Positions 5,476 through 35,626 of a DNA stretch of 64,000 nt are shown here, one piece after another. Source of the stretch: Steroidobacter gossypii (GTDB taxonomy: Bacteria > Pseudomonadota > Gammaproteobacteria > Steroidobacterales > Steroidobacteraceae); the NCBI RefSeq assembly GCF_016801985.1, contig NZ_JAEVLS010000001.1, positions 620,001-684,000 on the forward strand. The letters run 5' to 3'. The notes under the pieces are model-generated. The model made no database searches. It was not told where the DNA came from and was given only the letters and a program-made list of their open reading frames with translations. Within the stretch, counting starts at the first letter, position 1, and each line of letters starts with the position of its first letter. The translations under genes and the position numbers were made by a program.

Positions 5476-7419
5476 TCATTGCGCCGCTACCACCGGCAAC
5501 TCGATCGAGCTGGCTTGTTCGGGCGTGCGCCAGATGCGCTGAGTCGCTTTCACGTAGCTGGCCGGCTCGGCGAACATGATGTTCGGCACGAAGCTCTGCG
5601 GATTGCGGTCGTACAGCGGAAACCAGCTCGACTGGATCTGCACCATGATGCGATGGCCAGGCAGGAAGGTGTGATTCACCTGCGGCAAGGCGATCGAGTA
5701 CGGCAACGCTTCGTTGGAAGTCAGCGGCTGCGGCTTTGACAAATCCGCGCGATATCGGCCACGGAAGATATCCGCCGACAACATCAGCTGATAGCCGCCC
5801 ATGCTCGGGCGATCCGGCACTTCGTCCGGCCACACGTCGATGATCTTCACGACCCAGTCCGAATCGGTGCCGCTGGTGGAAGCGAACAACTGCGCTATCG
5901 GTTGGCCGGCCAGGCGCACCGCTTCAGTCAACGGCTCGGTTTGATAGACCAGCACATCGGTGCGCGAGGCGGCGTGACGTTGATCGTCGACCAGCCATTC
6001 GCCCCAGCCCGAGTTCGCCGCGCTCATCGGCAAAATCGGGCGCTGGCGATACGGCACGGGCTTGGCCGGATCTGAAATGTACTCGTCATAGCCGCTCTCG
6101 CCCGCCTGCGGCGCTTCGAAGCCCAGCCGTCCGCCGGACAACAGATACAGCGGACGTGACTTTTGCGCACAGCCATTGGCGCACGAACGCGGCCAGTGAT
6201 CGTACTCGTGCCACTCGTTGGCGCCGGTCTCGTACACCAGCACACGCGGCGTGTTCGGCTTCGGCGCGTCTTTCAAGTGATGATCTAAGAACGGCTGCAT
6301 GATCTTGTTACGAAACCAGCCGGCGGTGTCGCCATTGAATTCCAATGCGCCGAGGCTGCGGCCCTCGCGACGTCCCTGGCCGTGATTCCACGGTCCCATC
6401 ACTAGGTGCACGAGCTCGCCGTTCGGGTCCTTGGGCGCGAGCGCCTTGTATAGCGCCGGGCTGCCATAGATATCTTCCTGATCGAACAGGCCGCCGACGA
6501 TCATCATCGGCACTTTCAAAGGCTGACGGGCGAGCAGTTTGTCGACAGCCTGCTCCTGCCACCAGGAGTCGTAGCTGGTGTGTTCGGAGATAGCGCGCCA
6601 GAAGCCGAGTTGCTCCAGACCGCGGGTTTTGGCGAGCGCGCCGGCCGAACCGGCGCGCAGGAATGTGTCGTAGATGTCGTATGAGTCCCACCACCACTTG
6701 AACGAGCCGCTGCGCGTGGATTGCTGGCCATAGATGAATTCCAGCGCCGCGCCCTGTCGGAACGCGCCGTTGTGAAACCAGTCGTCGCCCATCCAGCCAT
6801 CGATCATGGGCGCGAACGGCACCGCCACTTTGAGCGCGGGATGCGGATTCACTGTCGACATGACAGTGGTGTAGCCCTCATACGATCCGCCGATGGTGCC
6901 AACGCGGCCATTGCTCTCGGGCACGTTCTTCACCAGCCATTCGATGGTGTCGTAGGCGTCGGTCGCGTGATCCACCTTGGTGGGATTCAACGGGCCGCGC
7001 AGCGGACGAGTCAGCACGTAATCGCCTTCGGAACCGAACTTTCCGCGCACGTCCTGATAGACCACGATGTAACCGGCTTCGACATTCGTGTCATGCATCT
7101 GCGGCACGACCGCGGCCAATCGCGGGCTGTTGAAGCGCGACACGCGACCGGCAGCGTTATAAGGCGTGCGCGTCATGATGATGGGCGCCTTGGCGTCCCT
7201 GGTGGCGCTCCTGGGCACGAGAATGAAGGTCTTGAGCTTCACGCCGTCGCGCATCGGAATCATCACTTCGCGCTTGACGAAATCGTAGCTGTCGACGCTC
7301 GGCGTGAACTTCTCCGGCGTCTCGCTCGGCAGCGACTTTACCGCCTGCGCAGCGCCGGCTTGCAGACTCAAGCCGAGCAGCAGCACGCCGACCATGTGAC
7401 AGAACTTTTGCTGGGCCAC
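5476..7419 (-). CDS. Secreted CocE/NonD family alpha/beta-hydrolase (peptidase S15-like)
   Basis: Members hydrolyse X-Pro dipeptides, beta-lactam acyl side chains, cocaine-type esters or related acyl bonds; the substrate here is unknown. The product is 647 residues, typical of the family. Features in order: a signal peptide (MVGVLLLGLSLQAGAAQA), the MRDGVKLKTFILVP strand at the fold start, VVYQDVRGKFGSEGDY, and the nucleophile elbow GGSYEG with Ser179. The C-terminal jelly-roll domain starts near residue 420 (PLTEAVRLAGQPIAQLF). The start is set at the GTG at 7419: GGAGGAG lies six to seven bases upstream. A TTG at 7437 would place that site inside the gene, so I reject it. Confidence 0.9.
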   Translation of the reverse strand: MAQQKFCHMVGVLLLGLSLQAGAAQAVKSLPSETPEKFTPSVDSYDFVKREVMIPMRDGVKLKTFILVPRSATRDAKAPIIMTRTPYNAAGRVSRFNSPRLAAVVPQMHDTNVEAGYIVVYQDVRGKFGSEGDYVLTRPLRGPLNPTKVDHATDAYDTIEWLVKNVPESNGRVGTIGGSYEGYTTVMSTVNPHPALKVAVPFAPMIDGWMGDDWFHNGAFRQGAALEFIYGQQSTRSGSFKWWWDSYDIYDTFLRAGSAGALAKTRGLEQLGFWRAISEHTSYDSWWQEQAVDKLLARQPLKVPMMIVGGLFDQEDIYGSPALYKALAPKDPNGELVHLVMGPWNHGQGRREGRSLGALEFNGDTAGWFRNKIMQPFLDHHLKDAPKPNTPRVLVYETGANEWHEYDHWPRSCANGCAQKSRPLYLLSGGRLGFEAPQAGESGYDEYISDPAKPVPYRQRPILPMSAANSGWGEWLVDDQRHAASRTDVLVYQTEPLTEAVRLAGQPIAQLFASTSGTDSDWVVKIIDVWPDEVPDRPSMGGYQLMLSADIFRGRYRADLSKPQPLTSNEALPYSIALPQVNHTFLPGHRIMVQIQSSWFPLYDRNPQSFVPNIMFAEPASYVKATQRIWRTPEQASSIELPVVAAQ

Positions 7420-31940: not shown

Positions 31941-32243
31941 TCAGGTCCCGGCAGCTTTCTTGGCCCGCGCCTTCGGCGGCTGCTTCACCGCATGCAGCAC
32001 ATTATCGGCCACGCGCGACATCCAGCCGCCGGAGTACAGCATCATCTTCAACGTGTGCAGCAGCACCTGGCCCGGCCCTTCCACCGCCAGGCGGCAGTCT
32101 TCTTCGATCTTGCAGTTCTGCATTTCGAAGAGGCCGTTGCCCTCGATGATCAGATTGGTGTCCTTGAAGTGGCAATCGACGAACGACTTGCCGTCGAGGA
32201 CCACGCGCTGGCCGGTGAAGGTTTTCCCGCGTACCTGTTTCAT
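31941..32243 (-). CDS. Small hypothetical protein, 100 residues, possible beta-solenoid
   Basis: No family is recognised. The first 65 residues alternate hydrophobic and polar positions with short periodic strands (GKTFTGQRVVLDGKSFVDCH, NLIIEGNGLFEMQNCKIEED, CRLAVEGPGQVLLHTLK), as in small beta-helix or polymerising folds. A more hydrophobic stretch (MMLYSGGWMSRVADNVLHAV) and a basic Lys/Ala tail (PPKARAKKAAGT) follow. The start at 32243 excludes a low-complexity 30-residue extension to 32333. It converges on panE with a six-base gap. A chance ORF is less likely given the residue pattern. Confidence 0.6.
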   Translation of the reverse strand: MKQVRGKTFTGQRVVLDGKSFVDCHFKDTNLIIEGNGLFEMQNCKIEEDCRLAVEGPGQVLLHTLKMMLYSGGWMSRVADNVLHAVKQPPKARAKKAAGT

Positions 32244-32365
32244 CTTTGTGTAACTTCTGAAAATTGCCGACGCCCCATGCGGAGCGCCCGTGAGCGAGGC
32301 GGTCTTTCTACACGAATGCGCCGGCTCTTGCACGGGCCGGCGTCGTAGGGGAAGCTGCCGGCCGC

Positions 32366-33193
32366 ATGCGTCTATGTAGATTCGATACCGACAGAGTCGG
32401 GGTGCTTCGCGGCGACAACGTGGTCGATGTGACCTCCGTCCTTGATTCCATCCCCGCCACGCGCTGGCCCATCGACCCTGGCGACCTGCTGATCGCCAAT
32501 ATCGACCGGCTGCGCGGCATGATCGAGCAGACCGCGCTGTCCGGCATTCCGCGCCATCTGGCCGACTGCGCGCTGAAAAGCCCGGTCGCCAATCCGAGCA
32601 AGATCCTGGGCGCGCTGAAGAACTATCACCAGCCGGCCGACGACGCCGACTATCCGGTGAGCACCCTGGAGCGCGACGGCCTGTTCCTGAAAGCCACCAG
32701 CTCCATCGTCGGGCCGTCCGAGGGCATCGAGCTCACCTTGCCCGGCCGGCAGCACGAGCACGAAGTGGAGCTGGCGGTCGTGATCGGATCCTGGTGCCGC
32801 AACGTCAGTCGCGAGCGCGCGATGGATCATGTCATGGGGTACACAGTAGCGCTCGACATGACCGTGAAGGGCACCGAAGAACGCAGTATGCGCAAGTCTG
32901 CGGACGGCCATACCGTGCTTGGGCCTTGGCTGATTACCCGCGATGAAATAGCAGATCCCGCAACGCTGGGGCTGTGGCTGCAGGTGAATCGACAGGCGCG
33001 CCAGCGCGGCAACACCCGCAATCTGCTGAACGACGTGCCTCGACTGATCGAATACGCCTCGTCGTTCTTCACCTTGTATCCGGGCGACATCATTCTCACC
33101 GGCACCCCGCCGGGCGCCGGTCCGGTGGTGGCGGGCGACGTGATCGATGCCGGCATTGTCGGCATCGGGTCGATGCGAGTGGAGGTTCGATAG
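32366..33193 (+). CDS. Fumarylacetoacetate hydrolase (FAH) family protein
   Basis: The 275-residue protein has the FAH C-terminal catalytic fold. The metal-binding motif is HEHEVELAVVIG (the usual E-x-E ligands), with the partner Asp in TVALDMTVK. The end FTLYPGDIILTGTPPGAGPV is the family signature. An N-terminal part of about 80 residues (MRLCRFDTDRVGVLRGDNVV) is of the type seen in acylpyruvases and 2-hydroxyhepta-diene-dioate isomerases. FAH members cleave or isomerise beta-diketo acids in aromatic degradation or decarboxylate oxaloacetate; the substrate is not readable. No pathway neighbours are seen. Confidence 0.88.
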   Translation: MRLCRFDTDRVGVLRGDNVVDVTSVLDSIPATRWPIDPGDLLIANIDRLRGMIEQTALSGIPRHLADCALKSPVANPSKILGALKNYHQPADDADYPVSTLERDGLFLKATSSIVGPSEGIELTLPGRQHEHEVELAVVIGSWCRNVSRERAMDHVMGYTVALDMTVKGTEERSMRKSADGHTVLGPWLITRDEIADPATLGLWLQVNRQARQRGNTRNLLNDVPRLIEYASSFFTLYPGDIILTGTPPGAGPVVAGDVIDAGIVGIGSMRVEVR

Positions 33194-33323: not shown

Positions 33324-34625
33324 TCACTTCCTCTTTCGCGGCTTTTGCGCCGCCTTCTTCTTTCCCCCTGAGCGCGTCTTGCTCTTGGCCTTGGCCGGGC
33401 GGGCGACTGTCCTGGCGCCCTTTCTGGCCGCGGTCTTTTTGCTGCCGGCGCTCTTGGCGGCCGGCCGCTTCTTGCTCGATTGCTTGCCTGCTTTTTTCTT
33501 GGCAGGCGCTTTGGATTTCTTGCTCGACTTCCTGGCCGGCGCCTTCTTGGCCGGACCCTTCTTGGCCGGTGCCTTTTTCGCCGGTGACTTCCTGGCAGGC
33601 GCCTTTTTGGCGGGCGCTTCCTCGGTCGGCGCCTCGGTGGCAGGCGGCGCTTCCTTGGCCGGTGCTCGCTTGCGAGCCGGAGCCTTCTTGGCAGGCGCTT
33701 TTTGCGCCGGCTCTTCGGGCGGTCGATCGGCCGGCGGCGCCTGCTCCTCGGCCGGCGTCTCCGAATCCTCCACGACCGGCGGCGGGCTTTCTTCGCTCAG
33801 GCTCAGCTGTTCCTGCTCGGGCTTGGGCTGCTTGGCTTTCTTGGGCTTGGCGGTTTTCGCCTCGGCGGCCTTTTGCATATCGGCCGCCCGGGCATGCGCT
33901 GCGAACATCGCGCCCTGCGGATCGAGCGCCTGCACGATCCAGTCGCCGCCCGGCACTTCCATGGGACCGTTGACGATCTTGCCGCCGGCGGATTTCACTT
34001 TCTTGGCGGTCTGGTTCACATCCTTGACCTGCACGTAGCTCACCCATGCCGGGCTCGCCCCCTGCATGGTCATCATGCCGCCGAACTGCACGCCGCCCAG
34101 CCCATAGACCAGATACATGCCCATCTCGCCCATGTCGTGCTCGGACAGCTTTTCCCAGCCGAACAGCGCCGAGTAGAAATCGAACGCACCCTCATGGTCG
34201 GTGCTGGTCAGCTCGTGCCACGAATGCTCGCCCGGCTTGGGCGGCGTGATCTTGCCGTAGTCATCGGCGGATTCGTATATGCCGAAGCGAGCGCCGTACG
34301 GATCCTGCAGCACCGCGTAACGGCTGCCGGTGGATAAGGTCGCAACATCCTTGACCACCGAGCCGCCCTTTTGCTTCGCAAGCTCGATGGTCGCGTCGAG
34401 ATCGCCAGTGCCCACATAGGGTAGCCAGTGTGCGGCGGAGCCGTTGCCCCCCACGGTGGCGCCGACCGGACCGCGCGCGGCGGCGAACATTACGTAAGAA
34501 GCGTCTTCTTCCCAGGGCTGGCTCTTCCAGCCGATCGCCTTCCCATAGAACGCATGGGCGGCGTTGGAGTCCGGCGTCACCAGCTCATGCCAGACGAATC
34601 GTCCACGGACACTCTGATCAGCCAT
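33324..34625 (-). CDS. Tandem VOC (glyoxalase-like) protein with long histone H1-like basic tail
   Basis: The first 245 residues hold two vicinal oxygen chelate domains (about 10-117, FVWHELVTPDSNAAHAFYGK; and 134-244, HSWHELTSTDHEGAFDFYSA), the usual two-domain CFP30/glyoxalase-like layout. His13 and His137, with later acidic residues such as Glu118, are possible metal ligands. Unlike normal relatives of about 260 residues, it continues with an acidic Pro-rich linker (about 268-308) and 125 residues of Lys/Ala/Pro repeats (309-433, based on PAKKAPAKK and PARK), like bacterial histone H1-like and AlgP proteins. The tail should be disordered and bind nucleic acid or polyanions. The combination is unusual; the frame is continuous with no sign of a frameshift. 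Confidence 0.88.
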   Translation of the reverse strand: MADQSVRGRFVWHELVTPDSNAAHAFYGKAIGWKSQPWEEDASYVMFAAARGPVGATVGGNGSAAHWLPYVGTGDLDATIELAKQKGGSVVKDVATLSTGSRYAVLQDPYGARFGIYESADDYGKITPPKPGEHSWHELTSTDHEGAFDFYSALFGWEKLSEHDMGEMGMYLVYGLGGVQFGGMMTMQGASPAWVSYVQVKDVNQTAKKVKSAGGKIVNGPMEVPGGDWIVQALDPQGAMFAAHARAADMQKAAEAKTAKPKKAKQPKPEQEQLSLSEESPPPVVEDSETPAEEQAPPADRPPEEPAQKAPAKKAPARKRAPAKEAPPATEAPTEEAPAKKAPARKSPAKKAPAKKGPAKKAPARKSSKKSKAPAKKKAGKQSSKKRPAAKSAGSKKTAARKGARTVARPAKAKSKTRSGGKKKAAQKPRKRK

Positions 34626-34873
34626 CGCGATCTCCCTCGATGAGACTTTGTTAGGTGTTGCTCGTTCCGATCATCAAGTGACGTTCATTGGCGGCTGAGC
34701 ATACTCCGCTCGTTGACGCAAAAGTAGTCAACACTCGACGCACATTCTCACATTGCATGTTTGTTGTGTGATCGATGCGCATGAGCGAGGCGCACACTTG
34801 CCAAAAACTGGCGATGAGGTACAACAGCACGCCAGAATTCGCACCTTCACATCGCACCAACTCAACGGATCTC

Positions 34874-35626
34874 ATGAGCACCACGCCTGAGGCGCGGCCG
34901 ACCCGCCGTGCATTCGTGGGTCTTCTCGGCGCTTCGGTCGGCGCCTTGGCGCTCGTCACCTCGCTGCCCGCGCCGGCGGCGTTGGCGGGTCAGCCGCCGT
35001 TGCAGATCTGGTTCATCCGCCACGGCGAGAGCGAGCTCAATGTGCCCGGCACGCCGCGCACCGTGCCGGATGGCGGGGTGAGTTATCCGTTGACGCGACG
35101 GGGTGTGGAACAGGCGCGCGCGCTGGCTGAATCGTTGAGCGACGCACCCATCGCGAAGATCTACACCAGCACCCATCTGCGCGCCATTCAGACTGCGGAC
35201 GCGCTGGCCCTGGAGCACCTGCTGCCGCTCGCGCTCGCGCCGGAAGCGGTCGAGATCGACTTCGGCGTCGGCGTCAACAGCGGCCAGGATGTGCGAGCCG
35301 TGTACAGCGAGCTGTCGCGTAAGTGGTTAATCGAAAAAGACCTGGATGCGCGCCATGGCGACGGCGAAAGCTTTGCCGACGTGCAGCGCCGGTTCCTGCC
35401 GTTTGTGCGCGAAGTAATGAACCGTCACGCGCTGGATTCCGGCATCGTGGTAATCGTCGCGCACAGCGCCACCTTGGGCTTCCTGGTGCCGGTGCTCGCC
35501 AACAATGTGCCGGCCGATTTCGCTTTGCGCCATCCCTTGCCCAACACCGGCATCATCAAGACCGAGCTGCGCGACAGCCGGCTGTTCTGCACCGAATGGG
35601 CTGGTCTCACCACCTTTGGTGAATAG
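34874..35626 (+). CDS. Tat-exported histidine phosphatase family protein
   Basis: This 250-residue member of the branch-1 histidine phosphatase (phosphoglycerate mutase-like) superfamily has the catalytic motif WFIRHGESELN near residue 60 and the second histidine in IVVIVAHSATLGFLV. Arg residues in STHLRAIQTAD complete the phosphate pocket. The N-terminus PTRRAFVGLLGASVGALALV has a twin-arginine motif and a hydrophobic core ending PAALAG, so it is probably exported folded to the periplasm. The ATG at 34874 is chosen because it places this signal at the N-terminus. The substrate is unknown. Confidence 0.85.
   Translation: MSTTPEARPTRRAFVGLLGASVGALALVTSLPAPAALAGQPPLQIWFIRHGESELNVPGTPRTVPDGGVSYPLTRRGVEQARALAESLSDAPIAKIYTSTHLRAIQTADALALEHLLPLALAPEAVEIDFGVGVNSGQDVRAVYSELSRKWLIEKDLDARHGDGESFADVQRRFLPFVREVMNRHALDSGIVVIVAHSATLGFLVPVLANNVPADFALRHPLPNTGIIKTELRDSRLFCTEWAGLTTFGE

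Follow-up and report, generated by a model that had tools for sequence, protein, structure and literature searches.

A 64,000-nucleotide stretch of the Steroidobacter gossypii genome (contig NZ_JAEVLS010000001.1, positions 620,001 to 684,000; genome size, 7.1 Mb), here called the window, carries a gene in which two VOC domains are fused in frame to a histone H1-like tail rich in Lys, Ala, and Pro. The gene is a single uninterrupted open reading frame (ORF) on the minus strand that begins with an ATG at 34625, ends with a stop at 33324, and encodes a protein of 433 amino acids (aa). The reading that we favor, at somewhat short of an even chance, is that of a metal-less tandem-VOC protein that would bind a small molecule and whose tail would tether it to a polyanion, most likely nucleoid DNA. 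The individual parts are familiar. In the open-license PMC literature, searched by titles and the starts of abstracts, we met no VOC or glyoxalase protein bearing a tail of this sort, nor the retention of such a fusion in essentially one clade across three phyla, nor the accompanying shift in head charge. The features of the gene are as follows.

33324..34625, minus strand: whole gene, tandem VOC plus linker plus basic tail, 433 aa (ORF with ATG and stop; family relatives)
34266..34607, minus strand: VOC domain 1, about residues 7 to 120 (Pfam Glyoxalase and Glyoxalase_6; model)
33891..34235, minus strand: VOC domain 2, about residues 131 to 245 (Pfam PF00903 at 139 to 241; model)
33852..33887, minus strand: predicted short helix after the VOC pair, residues 247 to 258 (full-length model)
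33705..33821, minus strand: acidic Pro/Glu-rich linker, residues 269 to 307 (sequence; near relatives)
33327..33701, minus strand: Lys/Ala/Pro H1-like tail, residues 309 to 433, 125 aa (composition; predicted disorder; subthreshold HC2 match)
33528..33711, minus strand: degenerate 15-bp tandem repeat under the tail, 5-residue unit, 11.9 copies, 66% matches (Tandem Repeats Finder)
34631..34638, minus strand: putative ribosome-binding site GAGGGAGA preceding the ATG (read by eye)

Residues 1 to 245 belong to the VOC superfamily, matching the Pfam Glyoxalase family (PF00903) in two stretches at 55 bits against a cut-off of 20.6, and all 47 aligned relatives match the same family at an E value of 0.001 or better. 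In an AlphaFold2 model, this part has a mean predicted local distance difference test (pLDDT) score of 95.3, and the paired beta-alpha-beta-beta-beta modules of the fold are supported by this confidence together with near full-length matches to tandem VOC structures. The full-length model shows pLDDT values below 50 for residues 259 to 428 and no secondary structure past residue 258; it rests on a six-sequence alignment, and some of the VOC region, mainly residues 42 to 62, is modeled worse in it. By composition and predicted disorder, the C terminus is thus a long disordered Lys/Ala/Pro stretch of the AlgP/PhaF type, joined here to a tandem VOC head and not to a helical or phasin head. A weak match to the histone H1-like HC2 family (PF07382) covers residues 307 to 428, with 21.6 bits where the family cut-off is 40. 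The acidic linker is present in four of the five near relatives aligned and missing in L042, so the alignment indicates a trait of near relatives; Asp plus Glu make up at most 2% in 17 of 29 family tails. The sequence-only reading of this DNA had described two VOC domains followed, in one frame, by an acidic linker and a 125-residue Lys/Ala/Pro tail above a degenerate repeat tract, and the ORF, the Pfam matches, the tail at residues 309 to 433, and the 15-bp repeat at 33528 to 33711 all bear this out. A promoter scan found nothing.

Such an end is rare in the genome. We defined a basic end as at least 14 Lys and a net charge of at least +20 within the last 80 residues, scored in stop-bounded frames of at least 100 aa. 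We scored 464,000 bases of this genome, made up of the window and 20 further stretches; only one of the 2108 frames there passed, and this was the VOC-tail gene, which rules out a by-product of base composition. Among the named loci (848,214 bases), 38 of 4106 frames passed, 37 of them being the VOC frame itself and the remaining one lying at L066. An HC2 profile search of the S. gossypii genome, in which the VOC-tail gene scores 18.2 bits, and a tail-sequence search, with 150 of 509 first-look candidates scored, revealed no such tail besides that of this gene.

The tail is also retained among close relatives. Sixty of 150 genomes sampled from the family have a match at an E value of 1e-20 or better, at 63 places in total. 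At 42 of these places, each in a different genome and one of them in the window itself, the match is to a close relative (1.7e-49 or better). All 42 were read: two (L023 and L030) run off contig ends, and the 40 that reach a stop all carry a basic tail. None of the 8 more distant places that were read, out of 21, is tailed. The length after the VOC part varies between species from 67 to 205 aa in this sample and is 188 aa in the window protein. In the 10 pairs formed by the window gene together with the four named relatives closest to it, the ratio of nonsynonymous to synonymous substitutions (dN/dS) is 0.12 to 0.22 in the VOC part and 0.11 to 0.32 after it (linker and tail together), although repeats make the tail alignment behind the latter range uncertain. 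These ratios indicate that the region past the VOC domains is under purifying selection. Because a basic end occurs in 1 of 2108 frames, the tail is in frame in 40/40 close family relatives, and dN/dS is 0.11 to 0.32 after the VOC part in 10/10 pairs, chance and a frameshift or assembly artifact are excluded. Among the outcomes that the earlier proposal named as overturning it were tailless relatives and a frameshift joining two genes; it survives the checks of both. At L066 (positions 6001 to 7020), from a Gemmatimonadetes metagenome-assembled genome, a basic tail lies in a different frame directly beside a VOC gene whose own frame ends 36 aa past the domain. The arrangement indicates a frameshift or split gene there; the trees and the conservation and charge counts below treat L066 as untailed by manual assignment, despite this adjoining out-of-frame tail.

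Outside the family sample, the nearest named relatives over the VOC part are Steroidobacter agaridevorans (84%) and two Peristeroidobacter species (83 to 84%); the scan of named records used one peptide pattern taken from tailed proteins and is hence biased toward tailed ones. A class-wide search matched 7 of 369 genomes, namely, the window's own, one of the same genus, and five others, and all five of these others lack the tail. In Acidobacteriota, the tail was found in 4 of 30 loci (30 of 31 places listed) and in 4 of 21 new loci (27 places listed), and the named scan included, these amount to 8 distinct tailed rows, with four genomes met twice and L241 cut. In Gemmatimonadota, it was found in 3 of the best 30 loci (about 95 places listed), plus 5 from the named scan. 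Most relatives examined in these two phyla are untailed. Steroidobacteraceae is the only gammaproteobacterial family in which the tail could be placed, several tailed records being titled merely Gammaproteobacteria or Proteobacteria. One record (L099) is titled Acidimicrobiia; its genome's class group holds acidobacterial records, so that it is probably mislabeled, and it was counted with Acidobacteriota. One scan of viral contigs with six peptide patterns confirmed no relative, and among the best 20 of 75 matching plasmid records none covers 80% of the protein; a viral or plasmid origin was rejected on these grounds.

The distribution of the tail follows the tree of the VOC part. In a 109-row tree, 54 of 55 tailed rows group together in a clade that holds no untailed row (ultrafast bootstrap, 93; Shimodaira-Hasegawa-like approximate likelihood ratio test [SH-aLRT], 89), and two tail changes are needed, versus 36.7 in shuffles. 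In a 172-row tree, the corresponding clade takes in 66 of the 68 tailed rows, with three changes required as against 53.6 in shuffles. The trees leave out L107, L108, L111, and L112 (partial or badly aligned) and L241, enter near-identical repeats of a genome once, and count L059 and L086 as tailed although their contigs end within the tail. The tailed clade spans Proteobacteria (Steroidobacteraceae), Acidobacteriota, and Gemmatimonadota, and no tail loss was seen inside it among the rows sampled. Most simply, the tail would have arisen once, perhaps two or three times. Four genomes (G115, G143, G004, and G519) hold a more distant second VOC relative besides the tailed one, and the second copy of G115 (L190) has no tail. 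Such genomes offer a natural internal control for the role of the tail, and tailed and untailed relatives are directly comparable.

What is conserved in the tail is its charge. Sixty-one distinct tails reaching a stop, from the loci collected first, were compared, each taken as everything after residue 245 (37 to 205 aa; median, 108). Their pooled composition is 23.2% Lys, 13.3% Arg (36.5% together), 28.6% Ala, 11.0% Pro, and 2.4% Asp plus Glu. Over the C-terminal 80 residues, or over the entire tail where it is shorter, the net charge averages +33 (standard deviation, 6; range, 18 to 44), Lys and Arg counts are anticorrelated (r = -0.71), and 59 of 61 tails lack aromatic and Cys residues. Since Lys and Arg replace each other, the net charge stays narrow, and the sequence drifts, it is charge and not residue identity that is kept; this pattern would be more in keeping with nonspecific electrostatic tethering than with a motif or a modification specific to lysine. 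The tail could instead be a functionless, tolerated by-product of an unstable GC-rich repeat, as the degenerate 15-bp repeat beneath it and its widely varying length between species would allow. With the tail kept in 40/40 family relatives reaching a stop and in 66/66 rows of one clade, with purifying selection after the VOC part, and with charge conserved where sequence is not, we consider this the most improbable of the explanations.

The head of the protein differs between tailed and untailed rows. The VOC-part net charge is -3.4 in tailed (n = 8) versus -14.5 in untailed (n = 41) rows of Acidobacteriota, -2.6 (n = 8) versus -18.4 (n = 31) in Gemmatimonadota, and -6.5 (n = 52) versus -11.3 (n = 32) in the remaining rows. 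A domain held near a polyanion is expected to lose negative charge, and this would account for the less acidic VOC part of tailed proteins.

Is the head a metal enzyme? Metal-ligand positions were placed by a profile alignment to the gloA-like protein of L072, using the His/Glu ligand set of GloA. They fall on W12, L68, and G115 in domain 1 and on W136 and A242 in domain 2; W12, W136, and A242 were placed by extending the aligned block, and the comparison covers these five positions. Both Trp residues are invariant in 47/47 rows, columns 115 and 242 hold small residues alone, and column 68 is mostly hydrophobic. The His and Glu ligands of glyoxalase I and of metal-dependent VOC enzymes are therefore absent at the placed positions, and the glyoxalase I equivalog TIGR00068 scores 21.5 bits against a cut-off of 120. 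An ordinary metal-dependent glyoxalase or dioxygenase-type enzyme, stationed near DNA to guard against methylglyoxal or a similar compound, is very improbable in view of these residues, which stand where the gloA-like protein has its ligands, and of this score. The sequence-only reading had supposed a tethered enzyme of this type. Its tether is supported in part: the VOC protein is real and the H1-like tail is real and kept by selection, from which one would naturally expect attachment to DNA, RNA, or polyphosphate. Its enzyme is not supported, as the placed positions hold Trp, Gly/Ala, and hydrophobic residues and the nearest solved structures are Rv0577 and AbxF, with metal enzymes further off.

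The conserved residues of the head may point to a ligand site. Across 172 rows, 19 positions are conserved at 97% or more, and untailed members keep the same core. Among the positions kept in at least 97% of rows are Trp 12, 33, 67, 136, 157, and 194 and Tyr 27, 44, 151, and 171, and these recur between both VOC domains. The best reading of this pattern is that the VOC part, metal-less at the placed positions, would bind a ligand. Identity is about 28% to the group of Mycobacterium tuberculosis Rv0577 (PDB 3OXH) and Streptomyces KbpA (NF053614), but the 282-aa PDB chain of the former and the 231-position model of the latter leave no room for such a tail. AbxF (PDB 8STB and 9JT3) is about 22% identical, and its chains of 234 to 262 aa likewise lack it. 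Literature queries on AbxF, bleomycin-type proteins, and 3OXH gave no matches.

These relatives raise the prospect of a KbpA-like regulator, whose VOC pair would bind a Ser/Thr kinase or other partner and whose tail would place it on DNA or ribosomes. The nearest solved structure, that of Rv0577, was deposited as a kinase inhibitor homolog; KbpA inhibits AfsK autophosphorylation, according to a passage of a review (PMC6988585); and the KbpA NCBIfam model is matched by 47/47 aligned rows. The window protein itself reaches 73 bits on that equivalog model, far below the cut-off of 250, no kinase occurs among the six neighbors scanned (one of them without a Pfam match), and no neighbor is conserved between lineages. 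We regard such a regulator as quite improbable.

In the window, the gene is flanked by two genes that lie outside the system.

34775..35626, plus strand: histidine phosphatase superfamily, divergent neighbor (PF00300)
32366..33193, plus strand: fumarylacetoacetate hydrolase family, convergent neighbor (PF01557)

Further neighbors are CstA, a molybdopterin enzyme subunit, and an aminotransferase. A small protein at 31941-32333 (minus strand), with no Pfam match in the window copy, is found close to the tailed VOC gene in 8 of the 50 loci compared (98 to 160 aa). Over these 50 loci, neighbor genes differ between lineages. In a second lineage, 14 loci (L055, L062-L063, L070-L074, L080-L081, L084-L086, and L102) have a gloA-like gene of about 139 aa upstream of the tailed VOC gene and in the same orientation, its distance varying. 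It mostly follows an acetolactate synthase gene, in some loci a YiiD-type thioesterase gene lies in between, and threonine ammonia-lyase occurs in the stretch. This may point faintly to aldehyde chemistry, or reflect no more than linkage. A conserved operon partner was rejected, as none extends across lineages and the gloA-like neighbor is limited to these 14 loci at variable distance.

The tail finds its closest counterparts in three known systems. Like the VOC protein, AlgP of Pseudomonas aeruginosa joins an N-terminal domain to a long disordered Lys/Ala/Pro tail likened to histone H1 in an excerpt of PMC9239181; unlike it, AlgP has a putatively helical N-terminal part in place of VOC domains, and its KPAA repeats are regular whereas those of the VOC protein are degenerate. 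The PhaF phasin of Pseudomonas putida is the closest mechanistic precedent, with a functional head and a disordered basic tail thought to hold its cargo on the nucleoid (excerpts of PMC3574117 and PMC9239181), but its head binds polyhydroxyalkanoate granules and has no VOC domain. HctB/HC2 (PF07382) shares the Lys/Ala-rich composition and the weak match noted above; Pfam names this family a histone H1-like nucleoprotein, not a VOC fusion, and its cut-off is not reached.

The same excerpts describe both PhaF and AlgP as having H1-like tails that bind DNA, for which reason nucleoid DNA is the favored polyanion. The strongest rival is polyphosphate, because AlgP also associates with its granules: the tail would bind polyphosphate or polyphosphate granules, and the VOC protein would be granule associated. 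According to PMC9239181, AlgP, which has a 154-residue KPAA-rich C-terminal domain, associates with these granules, and loss of this domain impairs granule positioning; the tail of the VOC protein has a composition of the AlgP kind. Yet AlgP is also called a DNA-binding protein in that text, so the two targets are not separated by it; moreover, the free exchange of Lys and Arg argues against a strictly lysine-dependent interaction, and none of the neighbors identified points to polyphosphate metabolism. We judge this alternative unlikely. Slightly less likely is an architectural nucleoid protein, in which the tail would compact DNA and the VOC pair would be merely a folded head, dimerizing or ligand sensing. 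The absence of metal ligands at the placed positions, the charge kept while the tail sequence drifts, and the standing of this tail as the sole one of its kind found in its own genome (by HC2 search, tail search, and the 464-kb sample) suit that role, but 19 positions conserved at 97% or more over 172 rows and a dN/dS of 0.12 to 0.22 over-constrain the VOC part for a scaffold, and untailed members keep the same core.

We thus return to the metal-less, tethered ligand binder. The protein would belong to the wider Rv0577/KbpA group as a stand-alone tandem-VOC member, and its two domains would form an aromatic-lined site for a small molecule. Its disordered polycationic tail would hold it on a cellular polyanion electrostatically and without sequence specificity, most likely on nucleoid DNA, as proposed for the PhaF and AlgP tails. 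Its likely job would be to bind, and thus sequester or convert, a probably planar aromatic compound beside DNA, which may be a protective role. Several observations weigh against this reading. Weak matches to metal-enzyme models occur in the aligned rows (glyoxalase I in 6 of 47 and HpaD in 3 of 47). No close relative was found in 108 of the 150 family genomes, some of them incomplete, so the function looks dispensable. Many close relatives in Acidobacteriota and Gemmatimonadota, up to 46 to 49% identical, are untailed, and the VOC head therefore works without a tail. The tailed clade has an SH-aLRT value of only 59 in the 172-row quick tree, with L029 (a long branch) and L136 outside it, and the head charge shift may be one inherited event, as the tailed rows share ancestry. 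Neighbors are not conserved across lineages and therefore indicate no pathway, and charge alone cannot separate DNA from RNA or polyphosphate.

A wider claim, which we hold to be doubtful, is that the tailed VOC clade, having arisen essentially once and spread over three phyla, would constitute a new class of nucleoid-associated proteins in which a chromatin-bound head binds a small molecule, either as a DNA-resident scavenger of intercalating or DNA-damaging aromatics or as a ligand-gated chromatin protein. Bacterial tails of the H1 type are known from a small number of structural proteins, AlgP and PhaF among them. That a ligand-binding fold carries one throughout a lineage suggests that bacteria may station small-molecule binders on the nucleoid or on polyphosphate.
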